Source: Candidatus Peribacteria bacterium (GTDB lineage Bacteria; Patescibacteriota; Gracilibacteria; Peribacterales; Peribacteraceae). Taken from it: a stretch of 34,057 nt of DNA. The notes beneath the pieces were generated by a model that saw nothing but the letters and a program-made list of their open reading frames with translations, ran no database searches and was not told the origin of the DNA. The translations under genes were made by a program, and so were the position numbers. This document shows positions 24,702 to 34,057 of the stretch, in pieces. The stretch is from the NCBI GenBank assembly GCA_016866875.1, contig VGKY01000009.1, forward strand, positions 1 through 34,057, written 5' to 3'. Each line of letters opens with the position of its first letter. The first letter of the stretch is position 1.

Positions 24702-24815
24702 ATGCTTCTTGTCCCTGCAGTCATTAAGCCGTCTTCGGTCCAGGGTGTTGGCCTCTTTGCCGATGCAGATATTCCCAAAGACACTGTTGTATCCCGAAGG
24801 CTTCCCATTCCGTGA
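24702..24815 (+). pseudogene. SET-domain N-terminal fragment
   Basis: A 37-codon frame reads MLLVPAVIKPSSVQGVGLFA then DADIPKDTVV and stops at TGA 24813. The IKPSSVQGVGLFA...DIPKDTVV pattern is the start of SET-domain protein methyltransferases, where the substrate and cofactor regions would follow. None follows, so this is the truncated 5' end of a lost gene. A start inside the tail could also provide the start of the lipoprotein (ATG 24836), but the frames differ. Confidence 0.55.
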
Positions 24816-24835
24816 AGCGAATGCACAATCCTGCT

Positions 24836-25438
24836 ATGAACATTCGACAATGGTTTCCATCATTCCTGGCTCTTGCACTCGCGGGCTGCACTTCTGTGCA
24901 GTCTCCGCCTGTCTCGGAACCCGCACCGATTACCTCATCCCCGGCTTCATCCATCAGCTCGATTCAGGCATTCCCCTATGTTCCTCCGGGCGAGGAGATG
25001 TCGAATCCCGACGAACTTCCCTTTAGCTACAATGCAGGTTCGCTTGACCTCAAGCTCTACCGCTTCACGGAACCCGCATCCGATGAATTCGACTATTTGG
25101 TGAAGAACAGTGCCGATACAAGCTGCGCGCCCAAGCGCCCAGCAGGATATTTTGAAGCACTCGCTAAAACCTTCGCAGGGGCTACGAAGACAACCTATGC
25201 CTTCCAAGCCCAGTCAGGCCCATATAGGGGCAGTGTCTTTCAGCTTGTCCTCATCCCGAATCGCCAACATTATCGTGATGTGGAGAAGGTAAGAGAGGAC
25301 TTTTACGCTTGCCACGTTGGAGCAATGATCGCCTTCAAGGTCTCGCCAGAGTGGCTCCTCTTGGAATCCGGTTGTGGAGGAGTAGATGAGGGATGCGGCG
25401 TGATCGGTGATCAACTGAAGCCTACGATCCATGATTAA
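24836..25438 (+). CDS. Lipoprotein of unknown function
   Basis: This 200-residue protein has a clear lipoprotein signal (MNIRQWFPSFLALALAGC, Cys 18), then a Ser/Pro-rich linker (about residues 20-50) and a globular region with several cysteines (SADTSCAPK, DFYACHVG, LLESGCGGVDEGCGV). The Cys pairs suggest disulfides in an exported protein. I do not recognise the family. In-frame starts at 24812 (GTG) and 24821 (ATG) would add residues before the signal; 24836 gives a normal signal length. It is convergent with the GT-C-like gene. Confidence 0.6.
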   Translation: MNIRQWFPSFLALALAGCTSVQSPPVSEPAPITSSPASSISSIQAFPYVPPGEEMSNPDELPFSYNAGSLDLKLYRFTEPASDEFDYLVKNSADTSCAPKRPAGYFEALAKTFAGATKTTYAFQAQSGPYRGSVFQLVLIPNRQHYRDVEKVREDFYACHVGAMIAFKVSPEWLLLESGCGGVDEGCGVIGDQLKPTIHD

Positions 25439-25548: not shown

Positions 25549-26909
25549 ACTGTATGACTACGTTCTGCGTTGCCCGGCCAGGTGCCGACCATCAGTACTA
25601 GCGCAAGGATCACCAGTGCGGAAGCGGGCATCATCTGCCTGGCAAAGGATTGTCCGTTGAGCAGGAAGGCGACGTTTGGTGTTGCAAGGTAGATGACGGC
25701 GTTCATGGCGATGATCGCGAGTGGCCAGAGGAGAGCGGGGAATGCAGATGCATGGATTGCAGGGTGCCGATGGTGACGCAGTAGCAGGAGAGCGGCGATG
25801 GGCGCCAGGATCCACGTTACTCCAAGGGAGCCAAGCTCCCACAGCGCGGCGAAAAACATGCTCACGCCTTCCGGGTGCCACGCCAAGGAGAAATCGGAGT
25901 CGTGGGGCGTGAGGCCATATCCCTTGAGCTGCAGGAACACGAGGAAGGGGAGGAAGGCGAAGAGGGGAACGGCGAGGAGCGAACGCCATGGGCGCATCCG
26001 TCCTCTGCGCCATGCGATGAGCGTGCCGAAGGCAACCCACGGAAGGTAGCCGAAGTAGAGCCCCTCGGATTTCGTCCACAGTGCACCGAGCACGCAGAGA
26101 CCGGAGAGCGTCGCCCACCGCACCTCTCCCGTTTGTTCGAAGAGTGCGAGCGAGAGGAACGAGAGCATGAGGTATGTCGTGAGGTGTACGTCGCCGTAGC
26201 CTTGAGCCAGGTGGATGCTCATGAGGGGAATGCCGGCAACGAGCGTCATGCCCATGAGCGCGGCATCTGTCCCACGCAGTTTCCTCAGCATCAGGAATGC
26301 GGCGAAAAGCGACGTCCACGAGAAGAGAAACGTCACAGCATTCGCCGCTCGGTCGCTCCAAGGGCCGATCTGATTGACCACGATCTGCAGGCTGTGGACG
26401 AGGATCGGGTACTGTGGCTTTGCCACTCCGCGCGCTTCGGTGCGGTCGAAGGCGATCGCACGATCTTCGAACGATACGCGCGAGCGCATCGTCCAGTTCG
26501 TGAAGCTGTCGATCGAGAAGCTATGGAGGACGAGAGCGTGGATGGCACTGAAGGAGAAGATGGCCGTCAGGAGCAATGTGCAGCAGATCCGGTACGAGCG
26601 TCGCTGGCGCACGGCTGGCCTTGGGGGTAGATCGATGGATGGGCATGCGTCGTCGGATATCTGCCGTCGTGAGCGCAGCCACAGGAGTGTGGCGATGACA
26701 AGGGCGTGACCTCCGAGCAGTACCAGAGGCGAGAGCTTTGCCCCGATGACCGTGCAGAGGAAGACCAGCAGGACGTTGCTTACGGCCGCGAGCGGTAGCG
26801 CGAGGCTCCAGAGTAGAGCACAGCGGCTCTTGCCGAGCGTGAGGGTGCCAAGCAGTCGCCCTTCGGTGAGGAGGAGCGAGAGAGCGAAGATGCATGCGAG
26901 GAGCTTCAT
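25545..26909 (-). CDS. Multi-pass membrane protein, GT-C glycosyltransferase-like
   Basis: This 454-residue protein has about 10-12 membrane helices. After an N-terminal helical pair, the loop VLHSFSIDSFTNWTMRSRV and the following FEDRAIAFDRTEARGVAKPQYPIL resemble the periplasmic first loop of GT-C glycosyltransferases, where Asp residues coordinate a lipid-linked sugar donor. Such enzymes use polyprenyl-phosphate sugars to glycosylate proteins or lipids outside the membrane. The match is by topology and a few motifs, so a precise family is not assigned. The ATG at 26909 overlaps the stop of the upstream gene by four bases (ATGA); upstream in-frame starts would give a non-membrane basic extension. 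Confidence 0.62.
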   Translation of the reverse strand: MKLLACIFALSLLLTEGRLLGTLTLGKSRCALLWSLALPLAAVSNVLLVFLCTVIGAKLSPLVLLGGHALVIATLLWLRSRRQISDDACPSIDLPPRPAVRQRRSYRICCTLLLTAIFSFSAIHALVLHSFSIDSFTNWTMRSRVSFEDRAIAFDRTEARGVAKPQYPILVHSLQIVVNQIGPWSDRAANAVTFLFSWTSLFAAFLMLRKLRGTDAALMGMTLVAGIPLMSIHLAQGYGDVHLTTYLMLSFLSLALFEQTGEVRWATLSGLCVLGALWTKSEGLYFGYLPWVAFGTLIAWRRGRMRPWRSLLAVPLFAFLPFLVFLQLKGYGLTPHDSDFSLAWHPEGVSMFFAALWELGSLGVTWILAPIAALLLLRHHRHPAIHASAFPALLWPLAIIAMNAVIYLATPNVAFLLNGQSFARQMMPASALVILALVLMVGTWPGNAERSHTV

Positions 26910-27934
26910 CGGGTGATGGCGAAGAGCACGGAACCGTCCGGGAATTTCTGGAGGAATCTTGCAGGTCCCTCGACTCTCCCGCAGTGTAGTACGCCGTCTT
27001 CTTCGTACCATCCGGGCTGAGCATGTACAACGATGAACGTCGCTGCGGCTAGGCTCTCAGGATCGCGGGAGACGGAGCTGGGGTAGAGGAAGTACCGCAG
27101 GGCTTTCTCGTAGAAATCGCTCTCGCTCGTGCAGACGAAGACGAAGCGCTCAATGTCTCTAGCCTCTGCTTCCTGGCGAATGGTATGTGCCATCGCCTCC
27201 ACGGATCCGAGTTGCGCGTACGTGCCGTCGGAAGCCCACGTACGAAGGTGCATAGCGGTCATCGTCACAAGATCCATCGAGAACCATGCCTGGTACCCTA
27301 GTGCGCAGACGAGCACGATCGCGAGGGATCGGCTGAGCGCTCTCTCGCGGCGAAGCTTGCTCATGAGGAAGATCCCGAAGAGCGCTGCTGCAAGCACGAT
27401 GTATCCCAGTGGGATGCCGACGATGCGGTATCCGCGCAGCGTGTGAGCGCTCGATGCTTGATACTCTTCGGGAAGGCGCAGGTGCTTGCGTGCTACCCGA
27501 ACGATCGTCGTGAGTCTCGCAGAGGTGAAGACCGCCCTCCCCAGCTCAGCGGTGCTGCCCGCAGTCCCCATGCACGCCACCAGATAGTTCTGCGACCAAG
27601 GTGCCCAGCCCGGTGATGTCGTGAGGTCAATGGATGCCCGATGTGATCCTGCAGGGAGCGCAAATCGTACGAGGTGCTGCGGATCGCCCTTTCCATTGCT
27701 GCGCAGTGGTCCTGTGTCGCAGGAGAGAGGGTGCGTTGCGGCATAGGAGATCTCCACGGTTTCCCCGGCTCCGACGAGCATTACCGTACTGACGGTGTTC
27801 ATGCCCATGCGCTCGATGCGCTCCTCCTCAGTCAGGTGTCTGTGGGGGGTGATTTCCACGATCTCGCCTTGCGCAAACGCGCCAGATGACAGCGCGCACA
27901 GGAGTGCGGTACCGGCGATGATGCGCATATGCAT
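26906..27934 (-). CDS. Exported membrane protein of unknown function, coupled to the GT-C-like gene
   Basis: This 342-residue protein has an N-terminal signal peptide (MHMRIIAGTALLCALSSGAFAQG). About 140 extracytoplasmic residues follow, with DTGPLRSNGKGDPQHLV and LPAGSHRASIDLTTSPGW. Then come two membrane helices (IPLGYIVLAAALFGIFLM and SLAIVLVCALGYQAWFSM) and a C-terminal domain of about 110 residues with FVFVCTSESDFYEKALRY. I do not recognise the family. A TATACT box ending eight bases before the ATG at 27934 supports that start and a leaderless mRNA. It overlaps the GT-C-like gene, so the two probably act together in surface glycan synthesis or transport. Confidence 0.6.
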   Translation of the reverse strand: MHMRIIAGTALLCALSSGAFAQGEIVEITPHRHLTEEERIERMGMNTVSTVMLVGAGETVEISYAATHPLSCDTGPLRSNGKGDPQHLVRFALPAGSHRASIDLTTSPGWAPWSQNYLVACMGTAGSTAELGRAVFTSARLTTIVRVARKHLRLPEEYQASSAHTLRGYRIVGIPLGYIVLAAALFGIFLMSKLRRERALSRSLAIVLVCALGYQAWFSMDLVTMTAMHLRTWASDGTYAQLGSVEAMAHTIRQEAEARDIERFVFVCTSESDFYEKALRYFLYPSSVSRDPESLAAATFIVVHAQPGWYEEDGVLHCGRVEGPARFLQKFPDGSVLFAITR

Positions 27935-27942
27935 GCACACGG

Positions 27943-27948
27943 AGTATA
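27943..27948 (-). promoter_or_regulatory. -10 box for the exported membrane protein gene
   Basis: TATACT on the minus strand ends eight bases before the ATG at 27934. Confidence 0.45.
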
Positions 27949-28001
27949 GAGAAAGTGGGGGATTTGCAGGGAATCCGGAATGCAGCCCAAATAATTGACT
28001 A

Positions 28002-28166
28002 ATGATCAATATATTTTACTCCGCTGTGATGGAAGCGCTGCGCGCGCGGGTTGCGGCTGATACCTTTGTGCTGATCGAGTACATCCCAGGGGAGACCGAT
28101 CCCGAGCTGGTCGAAATGAACCTCGCGAAGGACTTGGCTCTTATTGGCTGGACTGCTTCTCCGTAA
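28002..28166 (+). CDS. Small putative protein of 45-54 residues
   Basis: The open frame gives up to 54 residues. From an internal ATG at 28029 it reads MEALRARVAADTFVLIEYIP, then GETDPELVEMNLAKDLALIG. The codon choice is like that of the neighbouring genes and the peptide could be a soluble alpha/beta fragment, but no family is recognised. A strong terminator hairpin follows 30 bases later. A TTTACT box ends eight bases before ATG 28029, so the shorter form is likelier. Confidence 0.4.
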   Translation: MINIFYSAVMEALRARVAADTFVLIEYIPGETDPELVEMNLAKDLALIGWTASP

Positions 28167-28198: not shown

Positions 28199-28232
28199 CC
28201 AGCACCTTTCTCGCGAAAGGTGCTGGGTTTTT
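28199..28232. terminator. Rho-independent terminator, usable from both sides
   Basis: CCAGCACCTTT pairs with AAAGGTGCTGG around a CTCG-type loop, an 11-pair perfect stem followed by GTTTTTC. It ends the small + strand gene. The T run borders the stop codon of the minus-strand DoxX-like gene, and A residues on the other side also fit minus-strand termination. Confidence 0.85.
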
Positions 28233-28582
28233 CAAAGCAGGATCGCGAGTGCCACCGCACTAAGCATCAGCCCTAGATCCCGAACGAAGAGATCATTGAT
28301 TCCCGTTTGCGTGAGAATGAAGCAGAGGTGCAGCGTCATGCCCCATGCAGCGATGCGACGGATGATGGTCTTTGGAAAGAGGAGCCCACTCGCAAGAATG
28401 ATTTCGGAGGCTCCGGTGACCATGAGCCACTGCGATTTGGAAAGCCCGACAAGTCCGTCGATCCACGGGGGCATCCAGGCGATCCACGAAAGCGGATGGA
28501 GGAATTTGTCTATCCCGAAGACGCCGAAGACGATGATCATGGCGCTCATGAGCACACCCCGCGCGATCGCAGTATTTAGCAT
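28232..28582 (-). CDS. DoxX-like membrane protein
   Basis: This 116-residue protein has four membrane helices: MSAMIIVFGVFGIDKFLHP, SQWLMVTGASEIILASGLL, a third around AAWGMTLHLCFILTQT, and the C-terminal LMLSAVALAIL. The GIDKFLHPLSWIAWMPPW and GASEIILASGLLFP patterns are typical of DoxX/SURF4-type small proteins, some of which act with thiosulfate:quinone or thiol redox chemistry; most have no known function. The start has GAGGAG just upstream but also a TACACT box seven bases away. It shares a divergent promoter region with the cupredoxin lipoprotein gene. Confidence 0.75.
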   Translation of the reverse strand: MLNTAIARGVLMSAMIIVFGVFGIDKFLHPLSWIAWMPPWIDGLVGLSKSQWLMVTGASEIILASGLLFPKTIIRRIAAWGMTLHLCFILTQTGINDLFVRDLGLMLSAVALAILL

Positions 28583-28589
28583 ACTCCTC

Positions 28590-28604
28590 AGTGTACCCTA
28601 CACT
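28590..28604. promoter_or_regulatory. Divergent -10 boxes arranged as a palindrome (AGTGTA-CCC-TACACT)
   Basis: The minus strand TACACT (28590-28595) serves the DoxX-like gene and the plus strand TACACT (28599-28604) the cupredoxin lipoprotein. They are separated by three bases, so two RNA polymerases could not bind at once. A regulator that binds the palindrome could control both. Confidence 0.5.
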
Positions 28605-28631
28605 CGTAGCGCTTCCATTCTCCAAGCATTC

Positions 28632-29099
28632 ATGACGTTCTTCCGCCTTCTTCCTGTTCTTGCTCTCCTCGTGGCCTGTAGCCAAAGCAATCCGTCAGTG
28701 CAGGAGCCCGCAGCCGATGGTCCCGCCATGGGTATGCCGGTGCCCGGGATGGAGGACGTCGATGAGATGGTTGTCACGGAGGATGCCGGAGGAGACGGAT
28801 CCGGTGTCGTTCCTGCGGCTGCGCCTCGCATTGTACGCATGGAGGCAACTAATTGGGCGTTCACGCCGAGTGCACTGACGCTGAAGAAGGGCGAGAAGGT
28901 CACTCTGCAGCTTGTCGGCGTGTCAGGTATGCACGGCATCGGCATCCCGGATCTTGGTATCAGCCAGAAATTCGGCCCAGGAGAGACGGTTTCCGTTGCC
29001 ATTCCCACCGATAAGACCGGTTCATTCAGTTTCCGCTGCAATGTCCCGTGCGGAGCGGGGCACAGGGACATGACGGGAACGATAGTGATAGAGGACTAA
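28632..29099 (+). CDS. Lipoprotein with CuA-type cupredoxin domain
   Basis: This 155-residue protein has a lipoprotein signal (lipobox VAC, Cys 16) and a Met/Ala/Pro-rich linker with GMPVPGMEDVDEMV, perhaps a weak copper-binding stretch. The cupredoxin domain occupies about residues 68-155. It has MHGIGIPDLGI for the first His ligand and the loop CNVPCGAGHRDM, giving Cys-x3-Cys-x3-His-x2-Met. This ligand set matches the binuclear CuA site of cytochrome oxidase subunit 2 (C-x3-C-x3-H-x2-M plus an upstream His). CuA transfers electrons between cytochrome c and oxidase. No oxidase is in the window, so copper storage, delivery or a stand-alone electron carrier is possible. The 3' end starts a GACTAAGAAG repeat. 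Confidence 0.85.
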   Translation: MTFFRLLPVLALLVACSQSNPSVQEPAADGPAMGMPVPGMEDVDEMVVTEDAGGDGSGVVPAAAPRIVRMEATNWAFTPSALTLKKGEKVTLQLVGVSGMHGIGIPDLGISQKFGPGETVSVAIPTDKTGSFSFRCNVPCGAGHRDMTGTIVIED

Positions 29100-29180
29100 G
29101 AAGACGAAGAGGACTAAGAAGACGTAAAGGGCGAAGAGGAGTTCCTCTTCGTCTTTTTAGTCCTTTTCGTCTTTTTCGTC
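29091..29180. repeat. 9-bp purine/pyrimidine repeat hairpin after the cupredoxin gene
   Basis: GAGGACTAAGAAGACGAAGA-type purine repeats, beginning at the last codons of the cupredoxin gene, face TCCTCTTCGTCTTTTTAGTC-type pyrimidine repeats, with the apex GAAGAGGA/TCCTCTTC at 29133-29150. It lies in a 104-base gap before the next co-directional gene, so it may end or weaken the upstream transcript. Confidence 0.8.
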
Positions 29181-29203
29181 AGTTCCAGTAAGCTTCTTTC
29201 CAT

Positions 29204-29812
29204 ATGAAACATTCCCTCTGCCTCACAGGAGTCCTTGTGGCACTGCTCCTCAGTGCATGCGCCGCACGCGATCCCCATGCGATTGCCAATCCCGATCCCA
29301 ACCACACCCATGCAGACTTCGCCGTCTGGATGGATGGAGTGCGCATGGACTACTCGGCAGAGGAGCTCATGTCCGGTACGTCGACCGATGAAGCGACGCA
29401 CGATGAGGAGCATGAGCGACATGATCCATACCTACACCTTCACGATGGCGTGGGGCATGTGGTGCACCGGCACAAGCCGGGGCTGACCATTGGGGAGTTC
29501 TTTGCAACGATCGATATCGGCATTGCAGGGAATTGCTATTCTGCACATGCGCCGCTCGCGGATGGAGAGATCTGTGGCGATCATCCCTTTCGCATGTTCG
29601 TAAACGGGGAGGAGCGTCCTCTGGATCTCGCATACGCTTTTGAAGATCTGGATCAGATGCTCTTCACAAACGCGGTTGATGATGCAGAAGCAGAGGAGCA
29701 ACTGCAGCGATTGACGGACGACGCGTGCCTGTACTCCAAGCGTTGCCCATGGAGAGGGGAGCCCCCTGCCGAAAGCTGCATTGCAGATCCTGCGGTGCCG
29801 TGTGTGGAGTAG
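29204..29812 (+). CDS. His-rich lipoprotein, likely metal-binding
   Basis: This 202-residue protein has a lipoprotein signal (LLSAC, Cys 19). It is rich in His and acidic residues: NPDPNHTHADFAVWMDG, DEATHDEEHERHDPYLHLHD, GVGHVVHRHKPG. A GLTIGEFFATIDI segment and Cys residues (GNCYSAHAP, GEICGD, ACLYSKRCPW) follow. The clustered His/Asp/Glu suggest binding of copper or zinc. I have the impression that relatives with the same HLHDGVGxVVHxH pattern occur as hypothetical proteins in candidate-phylum genomes. It sits between two cupredoxin genes, so a role in metal capture outside the membrane is an inference. Confidence 0.68.
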   Translation: MKHSLCLTGVLVALLLSACAARDPHAIANPDPNHTHADFAVWMDGVRMDYSAEELMSGTSTDEATHDEEHERHDPYLHLHDGVGHVVHRHKPGLTIGEFFATIDIGIAGNCYSAHAPLADGEICGDHPFRMFVNGEERPLDLAYAFEDLDQMLFTNAVDDAEAEEQLQRLTDDACLYSKRCPWRGEPPAESCIADPAVPCVE

Positions 29813-29813
29813 A

Positions 29814-30022
29814 TAAGGATGAAGAGGACGAAGAGGACGAAAAGGACGAAAAAGACCAAAAGGACGAAAAGGACTTAAAAGACGAAGAGGAACTCCTCTT
29901 CGTCCTTTACGTCTTCTTAGTCTTGTTAGTCCTCTTAGTCCTCTTAGTCTTCTTAGTCTTGTTAGTCCTCTTAGTCCTCTTAGTCTTCTTAGTCTTGTTA
30001 GTCCTCTTAGTCTTCTTAGTCC
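29814..30022. repeat. Very long purine/pyrimidine hairpin of 9-bp repeats between convergent genes
   Basis: The left arm (29814-29891) is GACGAAGAG-type and the right arm (29894-30022) CTTAGTCCT-type. The apex is the perfect GACGAAGAGGA-AC-TCCTCTTCGTC (29881-29904). In the right arm the 9-bp unit forms a 36-bp higher-order unit repeated about three times (starts 29911, 29947, 29983). The right arm runs into the last codons of the DsbA-cupredoxin gene. As an RNA the arms can pair for most of their length, a bidirectional terminator. Confidence 0.88.
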
Positions 30023-31164
30023 TCTATGGTAATCACTCCCTTCATTTCGCTGTGGCCAGATCCGCACGCAACGTTACAAGAGAAGGGGAACGTGCCGGTT
30101 TTATCTGTCGGGAGCGGGAACTCCACAGTCTGCCCCTGCGCGATGGTCTTCGTGATGCCGAGGCCGGGGATGGAAACCCCATGCTCACCCTCAGCACCGA
30201 CGAACCGCAACTTCACCGTGTCGCCTTTCTTGACCGTGAATGTGCTTGGGGAAAATGCCCAGTTCGTGACGCGGATGGGGACCGTGTACACGGTCGGTCG
30301 TGCACGTGAAGAGGTTTGTGCGCCACCCGATGGGGCGGCGGCTGGTGCCGGTGCGGGGACCGTGTCGTTGCGGACATTCTCTACTGCCTGGAGGAAATCT
30401 GCTGTGGGTCGGGCGCCCATCACGCGCTGCACCCTACCCGATGGGATGTGCATGACGAAGGTCATAGGAGTGCCGTTGACGCCCGCTTCCTTCGCAGGAG
30501 CCATATCCTCCTTCACACGCGCGGCGAATTCACCAGAGGCGAGACACGTGGCGAACGCGGAATCCCTCAGGCCGATTTCCTTCGCGAGCTCGACGAGCTT
30601 CGTGTTATCGGATCCCTTTTCGAAGATGATCTCGATCATCTCCCAGAGCTTTCCGTCTCCACCGAGCTTGGCCGCACACTCCACAGCCTCAGAAGCCTTC
30701 TGAGCGTTCTTGTGAGGACCTAGGGGGAAGTGCCGGTACACCCACTGCACATTTGTATCTTGGTCGATCACCTCCTGAAGAGTGGGATGGACGCGCTTGC
30801 AGAAGGGGCACTCGAGATCCGAGTACTCGATGACTGCGACATCGGCATCAGCATTGCCGCGGATGTGATCGCGGTCAGCGTCGACTGTGGGGATCAGTTT
30901 GTCCTGTGCTGCCGTATCGGCAGGAGTAGGAGCAGCAGGAGCTGATGGCGCACTTGGTGGTGATGGTGGCGATGGGGGGGCGGACGGTGCGTTGAGACTG
31001 GGGATGGTGGGGAGGCTCAGCCATCCGGGAAGTGCACTTCCTTCCTTCATAAGTAGGAATGCACCGATGAAACCGACGAGGAGCATCGTTACGCCAAACC
31101 AGACGTTGACCTTGCGGACGGTGATGACCTCAGGCGCGGCGGGAGGAGGAGCTTTACGGGGCAT
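30016..31164 (-). CDS. Membrane-anchored DsbA-type thioredoxin fused to a CuA-type cupredoxin
   Basis: This 382-residue fusion has an N-terminal membrane anchor (residues about 20-40), a Pro/Ala-rich linker (about 50-85) and a DsbA-like thioredoxin domain (about 100-270). The DsbA part has active site CPFCKRVHP (Cys 119 and 122), the helical insert, and the cis-Pro loop NGTPMTFVM. The C-terminal cupredoxin (about 290-382) has the His in EGEHGVSIPGLGI and CNVACGSGHSEM, the same C-x3-C-x3-H-x2-M layout as in the 28632 protein. DsbA proteins form disulfides outside the membrane; the fusion could link thiol redox state to copper loading. The gene is in tandem (66-base gap) with the HMA-TauE/SafE-like gene. 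Confidence 0.85.
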   Translation of the reverse strand: MPRKAPPPAAPEVITVRKVNVWFGVTMLLVGFIGAFLLMKEGSALPGWLSLPTIPSLNAPSAPPSPPSPPSAPSAPAAPTPADTAAQDKLIPTVDADRDHIRGNADADVAVIEYSDLECPFCKRVHPTLQEVIDQDTNVQWVYRHFPLGPHKNAQKASEAVECAAKLGGDGKLWEMIEIIFEKGSDNTKLVELAKEIGLRDSAFATCLASGEFAARVKEDMAPAKEAGVNGTPMTFVMHIPSGRVQRVMGARPTADFLQAVENVRNDTVPAPAPAAAPSGGAQTSSRARPTVYTVPIRVTNWAFSPSTFTVKKGDTVKLRFVGAEGEHGVSIPGLGITKTIAQGQTVEFPLPTDKTGTFPFSCNVACGSGHSEMKGVITIED

Positions 31165-31230
31165 GAGAACGGAGGGAAGCAGAAAAATATTCTATCCGGA
31201 TTCTACACGAAGTCTCAGACGTGAAACACG

Positions 31231-32634
31231 TCAGGATTTCCTCACGCGTATATCCGCGCGCATCATGCCCATGGAGCAGGTCAGCACGAAATCGCTCCGA
31301 GGGTTTTGGATGGGGCCCAGCCAGTTGCCCCCCTGCGCGATCGGCGTCGAAAGGTTGTGCGTGGGGTCGGTGAGCATCGATGCACAACCCCCTACGCTTT
31401 GGGGCGCATAGGCATAGATCCAGGTCTGCAGCCCAGGCTGGATCGTAAAGGAGTCGGGAGAGTAGCCTGCGTTGCTCACGGTCATGGTGACGATCTGGCG
31501 CCCCTGCGCATCGATGGAGACGTTCGGGTCATTGACTGCGGCAACCGCAGGTCGCTGATGGCGAAGCGGACCCGCGAGGTCGATACCGGTGAGCAGAAGC
31601 CCGTTCTGGATGTTCCAGATGCCGAGCATCAACACGAGGGCGCCAGAGAACGTGAGGAACCAGCGTGCGGTGCGCCCTTCGACAAGCGAGCTCACGGCAG
31701 AAAGGCCGAGGAGGGCGGGCAGCGTGCCAAGGGCGAAGACGAGCATGATGATGCCTCCTTGGATGAAGCTTTCCGATCCGAGCGCCAGTAGTTGCATGGA
31801 CTGCGTGAAGCCGCATGGCAGGAAGAATGTGAGTGCGCCAAGGAATGCCGGGGCGAGCGGGTGCTCCGAGCCACTGAGCTCGTGGATGCGCCGCGAGAGT
31901 GCTTTTGGTAGGGGGATGGTGCAGTAGCGCTTGGGGACGATTCTCAGGATGTTTAAGCCGAGCACAATCATGACCGCAGCGACCGCTACCGTGAGCATTC
32001 CCGTGGCTTTGGTGGAGAGGGTGATGGCGCTGCCGAGGAGCCCCACGAGACCTCCCAGCAGGAAGTACCCAGCGAGACGACCGGCATTAAAGGACAGCAG
32101 CGGCTGAAACCGGTACCACCGGTTTGCGCCCTGATGGGACTCCGTCCACTTGGCTGCGATAGCAAGAAGCAGGCCGCCGACGACCGCAAGGCATGTAGAG
32201 GATGCCGCGACCAGACCGACGGTGAAGACTGCTCCGAGGCTAGCCGCATCTTCGATGCCCTTAGCAAACGCGAAGACGCCGAAGCGCTTGAGCAGAAGGT
32301 AGCCGGCGAGGATTAGCAGGATCATGCCCCCGACTTCGGACCAGTCGGGATTCTCCGCCGCTGTAGCTGAGACGCGGAAAGCGCTTCCCTTTCTGTGGAG
32401 CCGATACTTGGTTGAATGCAATGCATGCTGAAGTTGCTCCAGACGAGGTGAGCCGAGAGTGGGATCGGAAAAAATCTCCACCGTGCCGCTCCGTTCGCTG
32501 GCGTGCACTTCGCGTACACCAGCCACATCCCTCAGACGACGTTCTAGGAGCAGTTCGCAGCTCCTGCAGGTCATGCCTGCAACGGAAAACACCTGTCGAA
32601 GTAGAGAGGGGGATGTATGGGAACGCTTGGTCAT
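31231..32634 (-). CDS. HMA domain - TauE/SafE-type membrane domain - cupredoxin-like fusion
   Basis: This is a 467-residue protein. Residues about 13-80 are a heavy-metal-associated domain with the copper-binding GMTCRSC (Cys 23 and 26). The middle part (about 90-375) holds several membrane helices, with an AASSTCLAVVGGLL loop and FFLPCGFTQSMQLLALGS, like the sulfite exporter TauE/SafE or DsbD-type family. The C-terminal 85 residues form a cupredoxin-like domain: VTMTVSNAGYSPDSFTIQPG, SVGGCASML and LTCSMGMMRADIRV, where Cys and Met residues probably bind Cu(I). Proteins of this architecture handle copper at the membrane. I start at MTKRSHTSPS (ATG 32634). Together with the DsbA-cupredoxin gene it forms a minus-strand pair. 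Confidence 0.83.
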   Translation of the reverse strand: MTKRSHTSPSLLRQVFSVAGMTCRSCELLLERRLRDVAGVREVHASERSGTVEIFSDPTLGSPRLEQLQHALHSTKYRLHRKGSAFRVSATAAENPDWSEVGGMILLILAGYLLLKRFGVFAFAKGIEDAASLGAVFTVGLVAASSTCLAVVGGLLLAIAAKWTESHQGANRWYRFQPLLSFNAGRLAGYFLLGGLVGLLGSAITLSTKATGMLTVAVAAVMIVLGLNILRIVPKRYCTIPLPKALSRRIHELSGSEHPLAPAFLGALTFFLPCGFTQSMQLLALGSESFIQGGIIMLVFALGTLPALLGLSAVSSLVEGRTARWFLTFSGALVLMLGIWNIQNGLLLTGIDLAGPLRHQRPAVAAVNDPNVSIDAQGRQIVTMTVSNAGYSPDSFTIQPGLQTWIYAYAPQSVGGCASMLTDPTHNLSTPIAQGGNWLGPIQNPRSDFVLTCSMGMMRADIRVRKS

Positions 32635-32737
32635 GGGATGCGGTGGTGAGGAGGCTTGCAGTATATCACGGTGTTCCATTGCTCGTGGGCGCCTGAGAAA
32701 AATCGTCGGCTTCTGTGGCGCGCGATTTTTCTCGACG

Positions 32738-32743
32738 TATACT
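32738..32743 (+). promoter_or_regulatory. -10 box for leaderless grpE
   Basis: TATACT ends seven bases before the grpE ATG at 32751. No clear -35 or HrcA operator is seen. Confidence 0.5.
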
Positions 32744-32750
32744 CACCGCG

Positions 32751-33305
32751 ATGTCCGCAGTTACTACCAGCGCAGGGGGAGATGGGTCGCTCGAGACGAG
32801 CGTACTTCGAAAGCAGGTCGAAGATCTGCAGGGGCAGATCGTCGCCCTCACGTCTGAGTTCGAAGCTGCGAAAGCTGAGGCAGTGAAGATGAAGGATCTC
32901 GCAGGACGCGCGCAGGCTGACCTGCAGAATGCGAAAGCGCGCGTAGATCGCGAGCGCACAGAACTTGCGGCGTTCGCGCTCGAGGCGATCCTGAGAAAGC
33001 TCCTCCCCATAATCGATAGCTTTCAGCGGGCGTTTCAGCACCTGCCTGAGGCTCTGGCAAACGACGAGTGGACGAAGGGGGTGGTCGCGATCGAGCGTCA
33101 GCTGGCTCGGGAGCTCGAGGCTGCTGGTTTACAGAAGATGTCCTCCCTGGGTGCGCCCCTCGATCCACAGCGTCATGAGGTGCTGCAGCAGGGATCTGGA
33201 AAAAAGGATGCAGTGATCGAGGTCTACGAAGAGGGCTACGAACTCCATGGTCGAGTGCTGCGTCCTGCCAAGGTGAAGATCGGCGATGGAAGTTCTAAGC
33301 ATTAG
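32751..33305 (+). CDS. grpE: Nucleotide exchange factor GrpE for DnaK
   Basis: This 184-residue cofactor releases ADP from DnaK. An N-terminal long coiled coil (about residues 18-75, VLRKQVEDLQGQIVALTSEF and onward) leads into the four-helix dimer region with LLPIIDSFQRAFQHLP. The C-terminal beta domain has FSSL-like MSSLGAPLDPQRHEVL, then GYELHGRVLRPAKVKIGDGS, the family signature. The ATG at 32751 matches the promoter spacing. DnaK is not next to it in the window; the next gene is convergent and overlaps its stop by four bases. Confidence 0.93.
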   Translation: MSAVTTSAGGDGSLETSVLRKQVEDLQGQIVALTSEFEAAKAEAVKMKDLAGRAQADLQNAKARVDRERTELAAFALEAILRKLLPIIDSFQRAFQHLPEALANDEWTKGVVAIERQLARELEAAGLQKMSSLGAPLDPQRHEVLQQGSGKKDAVIEVYEEGYELHGRVLRPAKVKIGDGSSKH

Positions 33306-33893: not shown

Positions 33894-34057
33894 TTTTATG
33901 CATCTCGCGAATTCTGCCCCCTTTTCCTCAACCCCTCGACTACGCTCGGGGTGACATATCTGGGGATTCTGCCATTCCCTGTTTTATGCATGCGCGAAAT
34001 GCTTCCCCCTTTTCCTCAACCCCTCGACTACGCTCGGGGTGACATATCTGGGGATTC
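33894..34057. repeat. 88-bp tandem repeat at the window edge
   Basis: The unit starts TTTTATGCAT at 33894 and again at 33982, a period of 88 bases. The 3' half of the two copies (from CCCCCTTTTCCTCAACCCCT on) is identical, including a palindromic CCCCTCGACTACGCTCGGGG; the 5' part has several changes. The second copy continues past the window, so there may be more units. No gene is visible here. Confidence 0.85.

Follow-up and report, generated by a model that had tools for sequence, protein, structure and literature searches.

We analyzed 34,057 nucleotides from a Candidatus Peribacteria bacterium (contig VGKY01000009.1; the whole stretch is called the window below) and found a cluster of five genes, spanning positions 28232-32634, in which two proteins, P0001 and P0002, carry a predicted CuA-type cupredoxin domain, normally the two-copper site of cytochrome oxidase. 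The cluster encodes, in order, a DoxX-like protein (P0005, minus strand), the lipoprotein P0001 (plus), a His-rich lipoprotein (P0004, plus), the DsbA-CuA fusion P0002 (minus), and the HMA/DsbD_2/cupredoxin protein P0003 (minus). CuA is classically known from oxidases and from N2O reductase. Our preferred interpretation, to which we assign a probability of about one half, is that the five genes form an extracytoplasmic copper/thiol module independent of respiration, in which Cu(I) would reach a surface CuA site whose cysteines would be reduced by the fused DsbA-like domain. An earlier examination of the same DNA, the sequence-only reading, had proposed for the cluster an extracytoplasmic copper relay or a respiration-independent electron carrier, and its interpretation holds as regards the CuA ligands and fold, the missing oxidase, the copper and thiol chemistry, and the gene order. 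Its coordinates were right, the reading frames were all open as described, and its observation of CuA-type loops and their neighbors was confirmed; the type of the third cupredoxin was corrected. Of the results that it had named as refuting its proposal, none was obtained as far as the analysis could go: the P0001 model superposes on real CuA domains, no oxidase was found, and relatives keep the gene order.

Predicted CuA domains of P0001 and P0002

The C-x3-C-x3-H-x2-M loop and upstream His that had been picked out in two proteins were found exactly in P0001 and P0002, and their attribution to a CuA center agrees with the canonical spacing and the CuA-type fold. The ligands of P0001 are H101, C136, C140, H144, and M147, and the two CuA domains are 55% identical. 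Between the two cysteines, at the residue that supplies the carbonyl ligand, known CuA proteins have Glu, Gln, or Trp (the 2cua row was also compared); here the position (V138) is occupied by Val, which was invariant in a 40-row alignment. Both proteins match the canonical motif, Hx34Cx3Cx3Hx2M (PMC6189053), without deviation. The C-terminal domain of P0001 matched Pfam Cupredoxin_1 (E 2.7e-9) and CoxB TIGR02866 (E 2.1e-9), and its nearest PDB match was subunit II of ba3 oxidase (3.6e-10 as a single sequence, 1.2e-22 as a profile), with NosZ next. When P0001 was searched against its own genome, the two window domains were the only matches.

The five side-chain ligands were kept in all 25 domains of a first set of relatives, and the complete motif was present in 89 of the 104 CuA-profile domains of a wider set that includes CupA-type domains and loop-insert variants; the motif is therefore not due to chance. 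The H-to-C spacing of the window proteins was common to 80 of the 89 complete-motif domains. Ligands were lost or altered in some relatives (Janthinobacterium, Cupriavidus, and locus L137). A PmoD-type site was rejected for P0001, in which Cx7MxHxnC was absent on sequence inspection.

Two further observations concern CuA domains elsewhere. In Parcubacteria (L157, L163, L164), CuA variants whose ligand loop contains an insert (CSVPCGEG...HFDM) lie directly upstream of a P1B ATPase, and plasmid pILYOP02 of Ilyobacter polytropus (Fusobacteriota; L108) encodes a stand-alone CuA cupredoxin in the midst of genes for multicopper oxidases and heavy-metal sensors.

Predicted fold and tree of the CuA domains

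The AlphaFold model of P0001 had a predicted local distance difference test score of about 98 across the CuA domain. It superposed on real CuA domains, with 1.1 Å over 89 columns and a Z score of 14.1 for 2cua (ba3 CuA) and 1.3-1.7 Å for NosZ, and the predicted fold would place the P0001 ligands close to one another, like those of solved CuA domains. Generic cupredoxins and nitrosocyanin reached equal Z scores against the model, so that CuA is identified by its ligands and not by the fold alone. In an 85-domain tree, the rows of COX2 and NosZ fell outside the Peribacteria set, with deep forks that are weak in an alignment of just 98 columns.

These data bear on whether P0001 and P0002 might instead store or chaperone copper, having inherited the CuA loop but binding a single Cu(I) and lacking a working binuclear center. 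The lipoprotein location, the copper-operon context described below, the neighboring CupA-type Cu(I) site, and the changes of ligands in relatives would all suit such a role, but the window proteins keep the five ligands with the exact spacing of most complete-motif domains and the P0001 model lies on a CuA domain at 1.1 Å. We regard this explanation as decidedly improbable.

Search for respiratory partners

The source genome (1,121,510 bases, 98% complete) is Peribacteria-like; an origin in the candidate phyla radiation (CPR) had been guessed from sequence, and the nearest named relatives are indeed Candidatus Peribacteria. Searches of this genome, each positive in control genomes, found no COX1, bd oxidase, Sco, CBB3-type cytochrome c, or Cu nitrite reductase (NirK)/multicopper oxidase, which extends the lack of a terminal oxidase from the window to the whole genome. 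None of the 192 genomes of the class had COX1 over cut-off, and 56 of them matched P0001 at E 1e-3, some through a CupA-type domain rather than CuA. The genome encodes a Fe/Mn superoxide dismutase. By eye, a protein resembling Fe/Mn superoxide dismutase is also encoded immediately upstream of CuA in a nanoarchaeal contig (L140, 9052-9666).

Weak matches of P0001 to the CoxB and NosZ models, and the annotation of DPANN homologues as nosZ-like in a study of oxygen-deficient zones (PMC10936187), raise the question of a respiratory enzyme, intact or remnant, that resembles nitrous oxide reductase or cytochrome oxidase. This explanation is largely refuted and very improbable. P0001 failed the full-length family of cytochrome c oxidase subunit II (TIGR02866; 37.2 bits against a cut-off of 147.7) and scored 33 bits against a cut-off of 625 for NosZ, being a protein of 155 residues without the CuZ propeller; no catalytic subunit or CuZ domain accompanies it, and no class genome had COX1 over cut-off, as noted above. 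In that study, a heterologous test of the DPANN version in Pseudomonas showed no significant consumption of N2O (PMC10936187). A respiratory oxidase or N2O reductase was rejected on the absent partners and the scores under cut-offs.

P0003 ends in a predicted CupA-type site

The HMA domain, the membrane domain, and the Cys/Met cupredoxin that had been proposed for P0003 were all found, the "TauE/SafE" part being better described as a DsbD_2 region followed by a CupA-like Cu(I) chaperone domain. The cupredoxin had no Pfam match and a single-sequence PDB search gave nothing useful, unlike a profile from 12 relatives, which matched CupA (2mry/4f2e, E 7.5e-12) and the metal-binding domain of pneumococcal CopA (4f2f, E 6e-4). 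The ligands of CupA are C74, C111, M113, and M115 (PMC5646241); C417, C453, M455, and M457 of P0003 align with them and were invariant in 12 of 12 relatives. By profile and ligands, the predicted site is thus of the CupA Cu(I) type instead of the CuA type to which it had been assigned. Two membrane segments of the DsbD_2 region contain one cysteine each (C148 and C274), both kept in the aligned relatives. P0003 probably has seven helices with the HMA domain inside and the CupA domain outside, as judged from hydropathy and a positive-inside count, the automatic scan having split one helix. The suggestion that this protein would provide a membrane copper step was counted as supported.

P0002 and the other members of the cluster

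The N-terminal domain of P0002 matched PF13462 (Thioredoxin_4; 4e-21) and PF01323 (DSBA; 3e-18), with CPFC at residues 119-122. The DsbA-CuA fusion was found at six loci (the window, L040, L042, L112, L115, and L117), and DsbA and CuA are separate adjacent genes at L039/L121. The sequence-only reading had taken the fusion for a thiol-coupled loading unit, which we consider plausible and count as supported. The coordinates of these features are collected in Table 1.

Table 1. Features of the five-gene cluster and their positions in the window
Feature	Positions	Strand	Basis or remarks
DoxX-like small membrane protein P0005, 116 aa	28232..28582	-	divergent from CuA gene, 49-base gap
CuA-type cupredoxin lipoprotein P0001, 155 aa (predicted)	28632..29099	+	lipobox LLVAC, domain matches, ligands, AlphaFold model
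Codon of P0001 ligand His101	28932..28934	+	Hx34C spacing; invariant in relatives' alignment
P0001 CuA loop, C136-x3-C140-x3-H144-x2-M147	29037..29072	+	ligand alignment
His-rich lipoprotein P0004, 202 aa	29204..29812	+	conserved HxHxD, HLH, and HxH histidines; C-terminal cysteines; possible beta-grasp-like core
P0002, 382 aa: DsbA/thioredoxin-like (CPFC) and predicted CuA domains, N-terminal membrane anchor	30016..31164	-	domain matches
P0002 CuA loop, C363-x3-C367-x3-H371-x2-M374	30043..30078	-	ligand alignment
P0003, 467 aa: HMA (CxxC), DsbD_2 membrane region (C148, C274), CupA-type cupredoxin (predicted)	31231..32634	-	
Predicted CupA-type Cu(I) domain of P0003, C417 ... C453-x-M455-x-M457	31234..31524	-	profile match, conserved ligands

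The His-rich lipoprotein and the DoxX-like neighbor named by the sequence-only reading were both present, the DoxX match lying under the family threshold (PF13564, DoxX_2; E 8.6e-4, 19.9 bits against a cut-off of 26.3). P0005 homologues adjoin CuA in Peribacteria, and DoxX proteins that pass the Pfam threshold for PF07681 stand beside CuA in a woesearchaeote (L136) and in Magasanikbacteria (L132). P0004 had no sequence match in Pfam, NCBIfam, PDB, or plasmids, and its homologues, present in 36 of 287 genomes of the phylum, extend to further CPR families and are also found in Woesearchaeota. Its model bore a moderate resemblance to beta-grasp structures, with a top Z score of 6.9 (transcobalamin beta domain), many ubiquitin-like rows, and no Foldseek match at E 0.001. 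The conserved HxHxD, HLH, and HxH motifs suggest that P0004 binds metal.

The presence of a DsbA domain fused to CuA and of an adjacent DoxX is also what a disulfide-forming system would offer, in which copper, acting via CuA and DoxX, would replace DsbB/VKOR as the oxidant of DsbA; Pfam MauE weakly matched one archaeal DoxX partner. With its single cysteine, however, the DoxX of the window lacks a redox pair, and P0001 has no DsbA domain, and we give this explanation very little weight.

Conservation of gene order and linkage to copper operons

Gene order was conserved in Peribacteria. Two contigs (L112, L115) have exactly the order DoxX, CuA lipoprotein, His-rich lipoprotein, DsbA-CuA, HMA/DsbD_2/cupredoxin, grpE; a third (L125) has the full cluster minus the DsbA domain, L113 and L114 retain DoxX-CuA-His protein, and parts of the cluster stand next to grpE across the family (L031, L034, L035, L044, L045, L089-L092, L102). 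The linkage proved wider than had been seen from the window, taking in other CPR lineages, DPANN archaea, and CsoR-CopZ-CopA operons in relatives. In Woesearchaeota, DsbA, CuA, and DoxX occur in a row (L131, L136, L139, L143), with P0004-related His proteins at L131, L139, and L143, and CuA adjoins DoxX in Magasanikbacteria (L132, L135). Homologues of P0003 and of the CuA proteins lie within CsoR-CopZ-CopA copper operons at L037, L039/L121, and L117; CopZ-CopA without CsoR was seen at L034 and L042, the latter a short contig.

CuA and the His protein co-occurred over the class (Fisher 2e-6, from presence lists transcribed by hand), but the association was not significant within the window's own family (p 0.06), so that much of it reflects shared ancestry. 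Gene order is the stronger evidence.

Other gene arrangements were noted in these loci. Single frames of 1105-1310 residues join a CopA ATPase to a copper nitrite reductase (L037, 1124-4948; L088, 3168-7100; L039, 8146-11463), TIGR02376 being over cut-off in genome G176 and, with its neighbors in frame, in G099; at L037 and L088, a P0004-like His domain is fused behind the CopA-NirK polypeptide. In Magasanikbacteria and one woesearchaeote (L132, L135, L142, L146), CuA adjoins two paired genes, F5 and F6, that by eye are aldehyde dehydrogenase- and acetolactate synthase-like.

Proposed mechanism

In the copper/thiol module that we favor, the HMA domain of P0003 would take cytosolic Cu(I) and the CupA-type domain would present it outside, as the domain order and the predicted seven-helix topology suggest. 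The membrane-anchored DsbA-like domain of P0002 may keep the adjacent CuA cysteines reduced for copper. This step is suggested by the fusion and by analogy with Sco/TlpA, which reduce the CuA cysteines of oxidase subunit II (PMC6696091), and with the DsbD-like ScsB and DsbA-like ScsC, which are involved in copper tolerance and Cu(I) binding (PMC8900818). The loaded CuA on P0002 and the surface lipoprotein P0001 would form a surface copper acceptor and probably a one-electron relay, with DoxX as a putative membrane partner and the His-rich lipoprotein as a candidate accessory copper binder. The likely purpose would be to tolerate copper and oxidative/thiol stress at the cell surface.

Several points weigh against this proposal. 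The window cluster has neither CopA nor CsoR, both of which are on another contig of the genome (C7, L087), and the window DoxX match is weak. CuA occurs without a nearby DsbA or TauE at L116, L119, and L122, so that no partner is obligatory. The membrane side predicted for the CupA domain comes from hydropathy alone, and pneumococcal CupA acts on the inside. Finally, a fully conserved CuA is chemically an electron-transfer center, and pure copper handling does not obviously need five ligands.

The last point is shared with an alternative that we consider rather unlikely, namely that the proteins are a respiration-independent electron carrier in which CuA would carry electrons, one at a time, between DsbA/DoxX on the membrane side and an acceptor on the outside (the host, or NirK/multicopper oxidase in some relatives), with the copper genes just supplying cofactor. 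This explanation is favored by the retention of all of the CuA ligands, which are invariant in the first relative set, and by the fact that the CuA sites of known proteins are electron-transfer centers. The adjacency of CuA and DoxX recurs across CPR and DPANN, and in relatives CuA has NirK (fused to CopA; L037, L039) or multicopper oxidases (L041, L043, L117, L119, L108) as direct or close neighbors; published proposals of a CPR cupredoxin as the donor of NirK (PMC5581439, PMC12931201) also favor it. No acceptor is known, however, since the window genome is without NirK, multicopper oxidase, CBB3-type cytochrome c, and oxidase, and the CupA/HMA protein and the linkage to CsoR-CopZ-CopA are expected of a copper-handling module.

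Other features of the window

Beyond P0003 are GrpE (open reading frame 32715-33305) and then a VTT-like protein. A promoter/terminator scan gave no useful operon boundary, apart from hairpins within repeats. These repeats (29090-29180 and 29815-30025) are 9-base purine/pyrimidine tandem repeats with higher units of 27 and 36 bases; they overrun the stop codons of both CuA genes, form terminator-like hairpins, and give both genes a shared end, ...GAAGACTAAGAAGAC. Another tandem repeat, of 88 bases in 1.9 copies, occupies the end of the window (33894-34057). Two exported proteins adjoining the cluster (26906-28009 and 24812-25438) had no Pfam/NCBIfam match and no homologues in the relatives' loci examined.

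Comparison with known systems

Oxidase-free CuA proteins as such are already known. The DPANN study describes, from oxygen-deficient zones, "nosZ-like" proteins with CuA, without CuZ or other respiratory genes, and of unknown function, and states that the genes are found in such zones only (PMC10936187); our genome-collection scan found related proteins also in groundwater Peribacteria, Magasanikbacteria, Woesearchaeota, and others. Like the window proteins, the proteins of that description are exported and combine CuA with no CuZ and an oxidase-free genome, and the scanned Woesearchaeota proteins fit it. They differ in being read as a possible N2O reductase, and the part of the paper available to us makes no mention of DoxX, DsbA (fusion), the His protein, or copper-operon linkage. 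The literature that we found, which is partial in coverage, does not describe the DsbA-CuA fusion, the DoxX/His-protein linkage, or the CsoR-CopZ-CopA context, and contained nothing on cupredoxin with Peribacteria or on DoxX with copper and cupredoxin.

The domains of P0001 and P0002 share the fold, the five ligands, and their spacing with CuA of ba3 subunit II and NosZ, but lack a catalytic subunit, membrane hairpin, or CuZ propeller and have Val for Glu/Gln/Trp between the cysteines. PmoD likewise has a CuA center outside an oxidase in a copper-linked context, but its site forms at a homodimer interface from Cx7MxHxnC, whereas the motif of P0001/P0002 is canonical. P0003 resembles CupA of the pneumococcal cop operon in its C-terminal profile match, its C + CxMxM ligands, and the CopA neighbor in relatives; it differs in that the domain is fused behind HMA and DsbD_2 and is probably on the outer side. 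With ScsB/ScsC, the cluster has in common a DsbD-type membrane protein and a copper-linked DsbA-type protein, but the alpha and gamma domains of ScsB were not found in P0003 by Pfam, and HMA and CupA domains are present instead. Scs proteins are not known to have HMA, CupA, or CuA domains. As in TlpA/Sco maturation, a membrane-anchored thioredoxin fold is proposed to act on CuA cysteines, but here the thioredoxin and CuA domains belong to a single chain, which serves no oxidase.

We tentatively suggest that these proteins belong to a cross-domain CuA/DsbA/DoxX/His-protein system of CPR and DPANN that might have a true binuclear CuA, its own thiol reductase fused in some lineages, and one-electron surface chemistry with no respiratory oxidase. 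CuA that is conserved in presumed fermenters and parasites, fused to a thioredoxin-like domain, and linked to copper-export genes is CuA separated from respiration, and the unexplained DPANN nosZ-like genes gain a testable alternative role. If the suggestion is true, the cross-domain system would be a further physiological home for CuA, besides those of the cytochrome oxidase, NosZ, and PmoD type.

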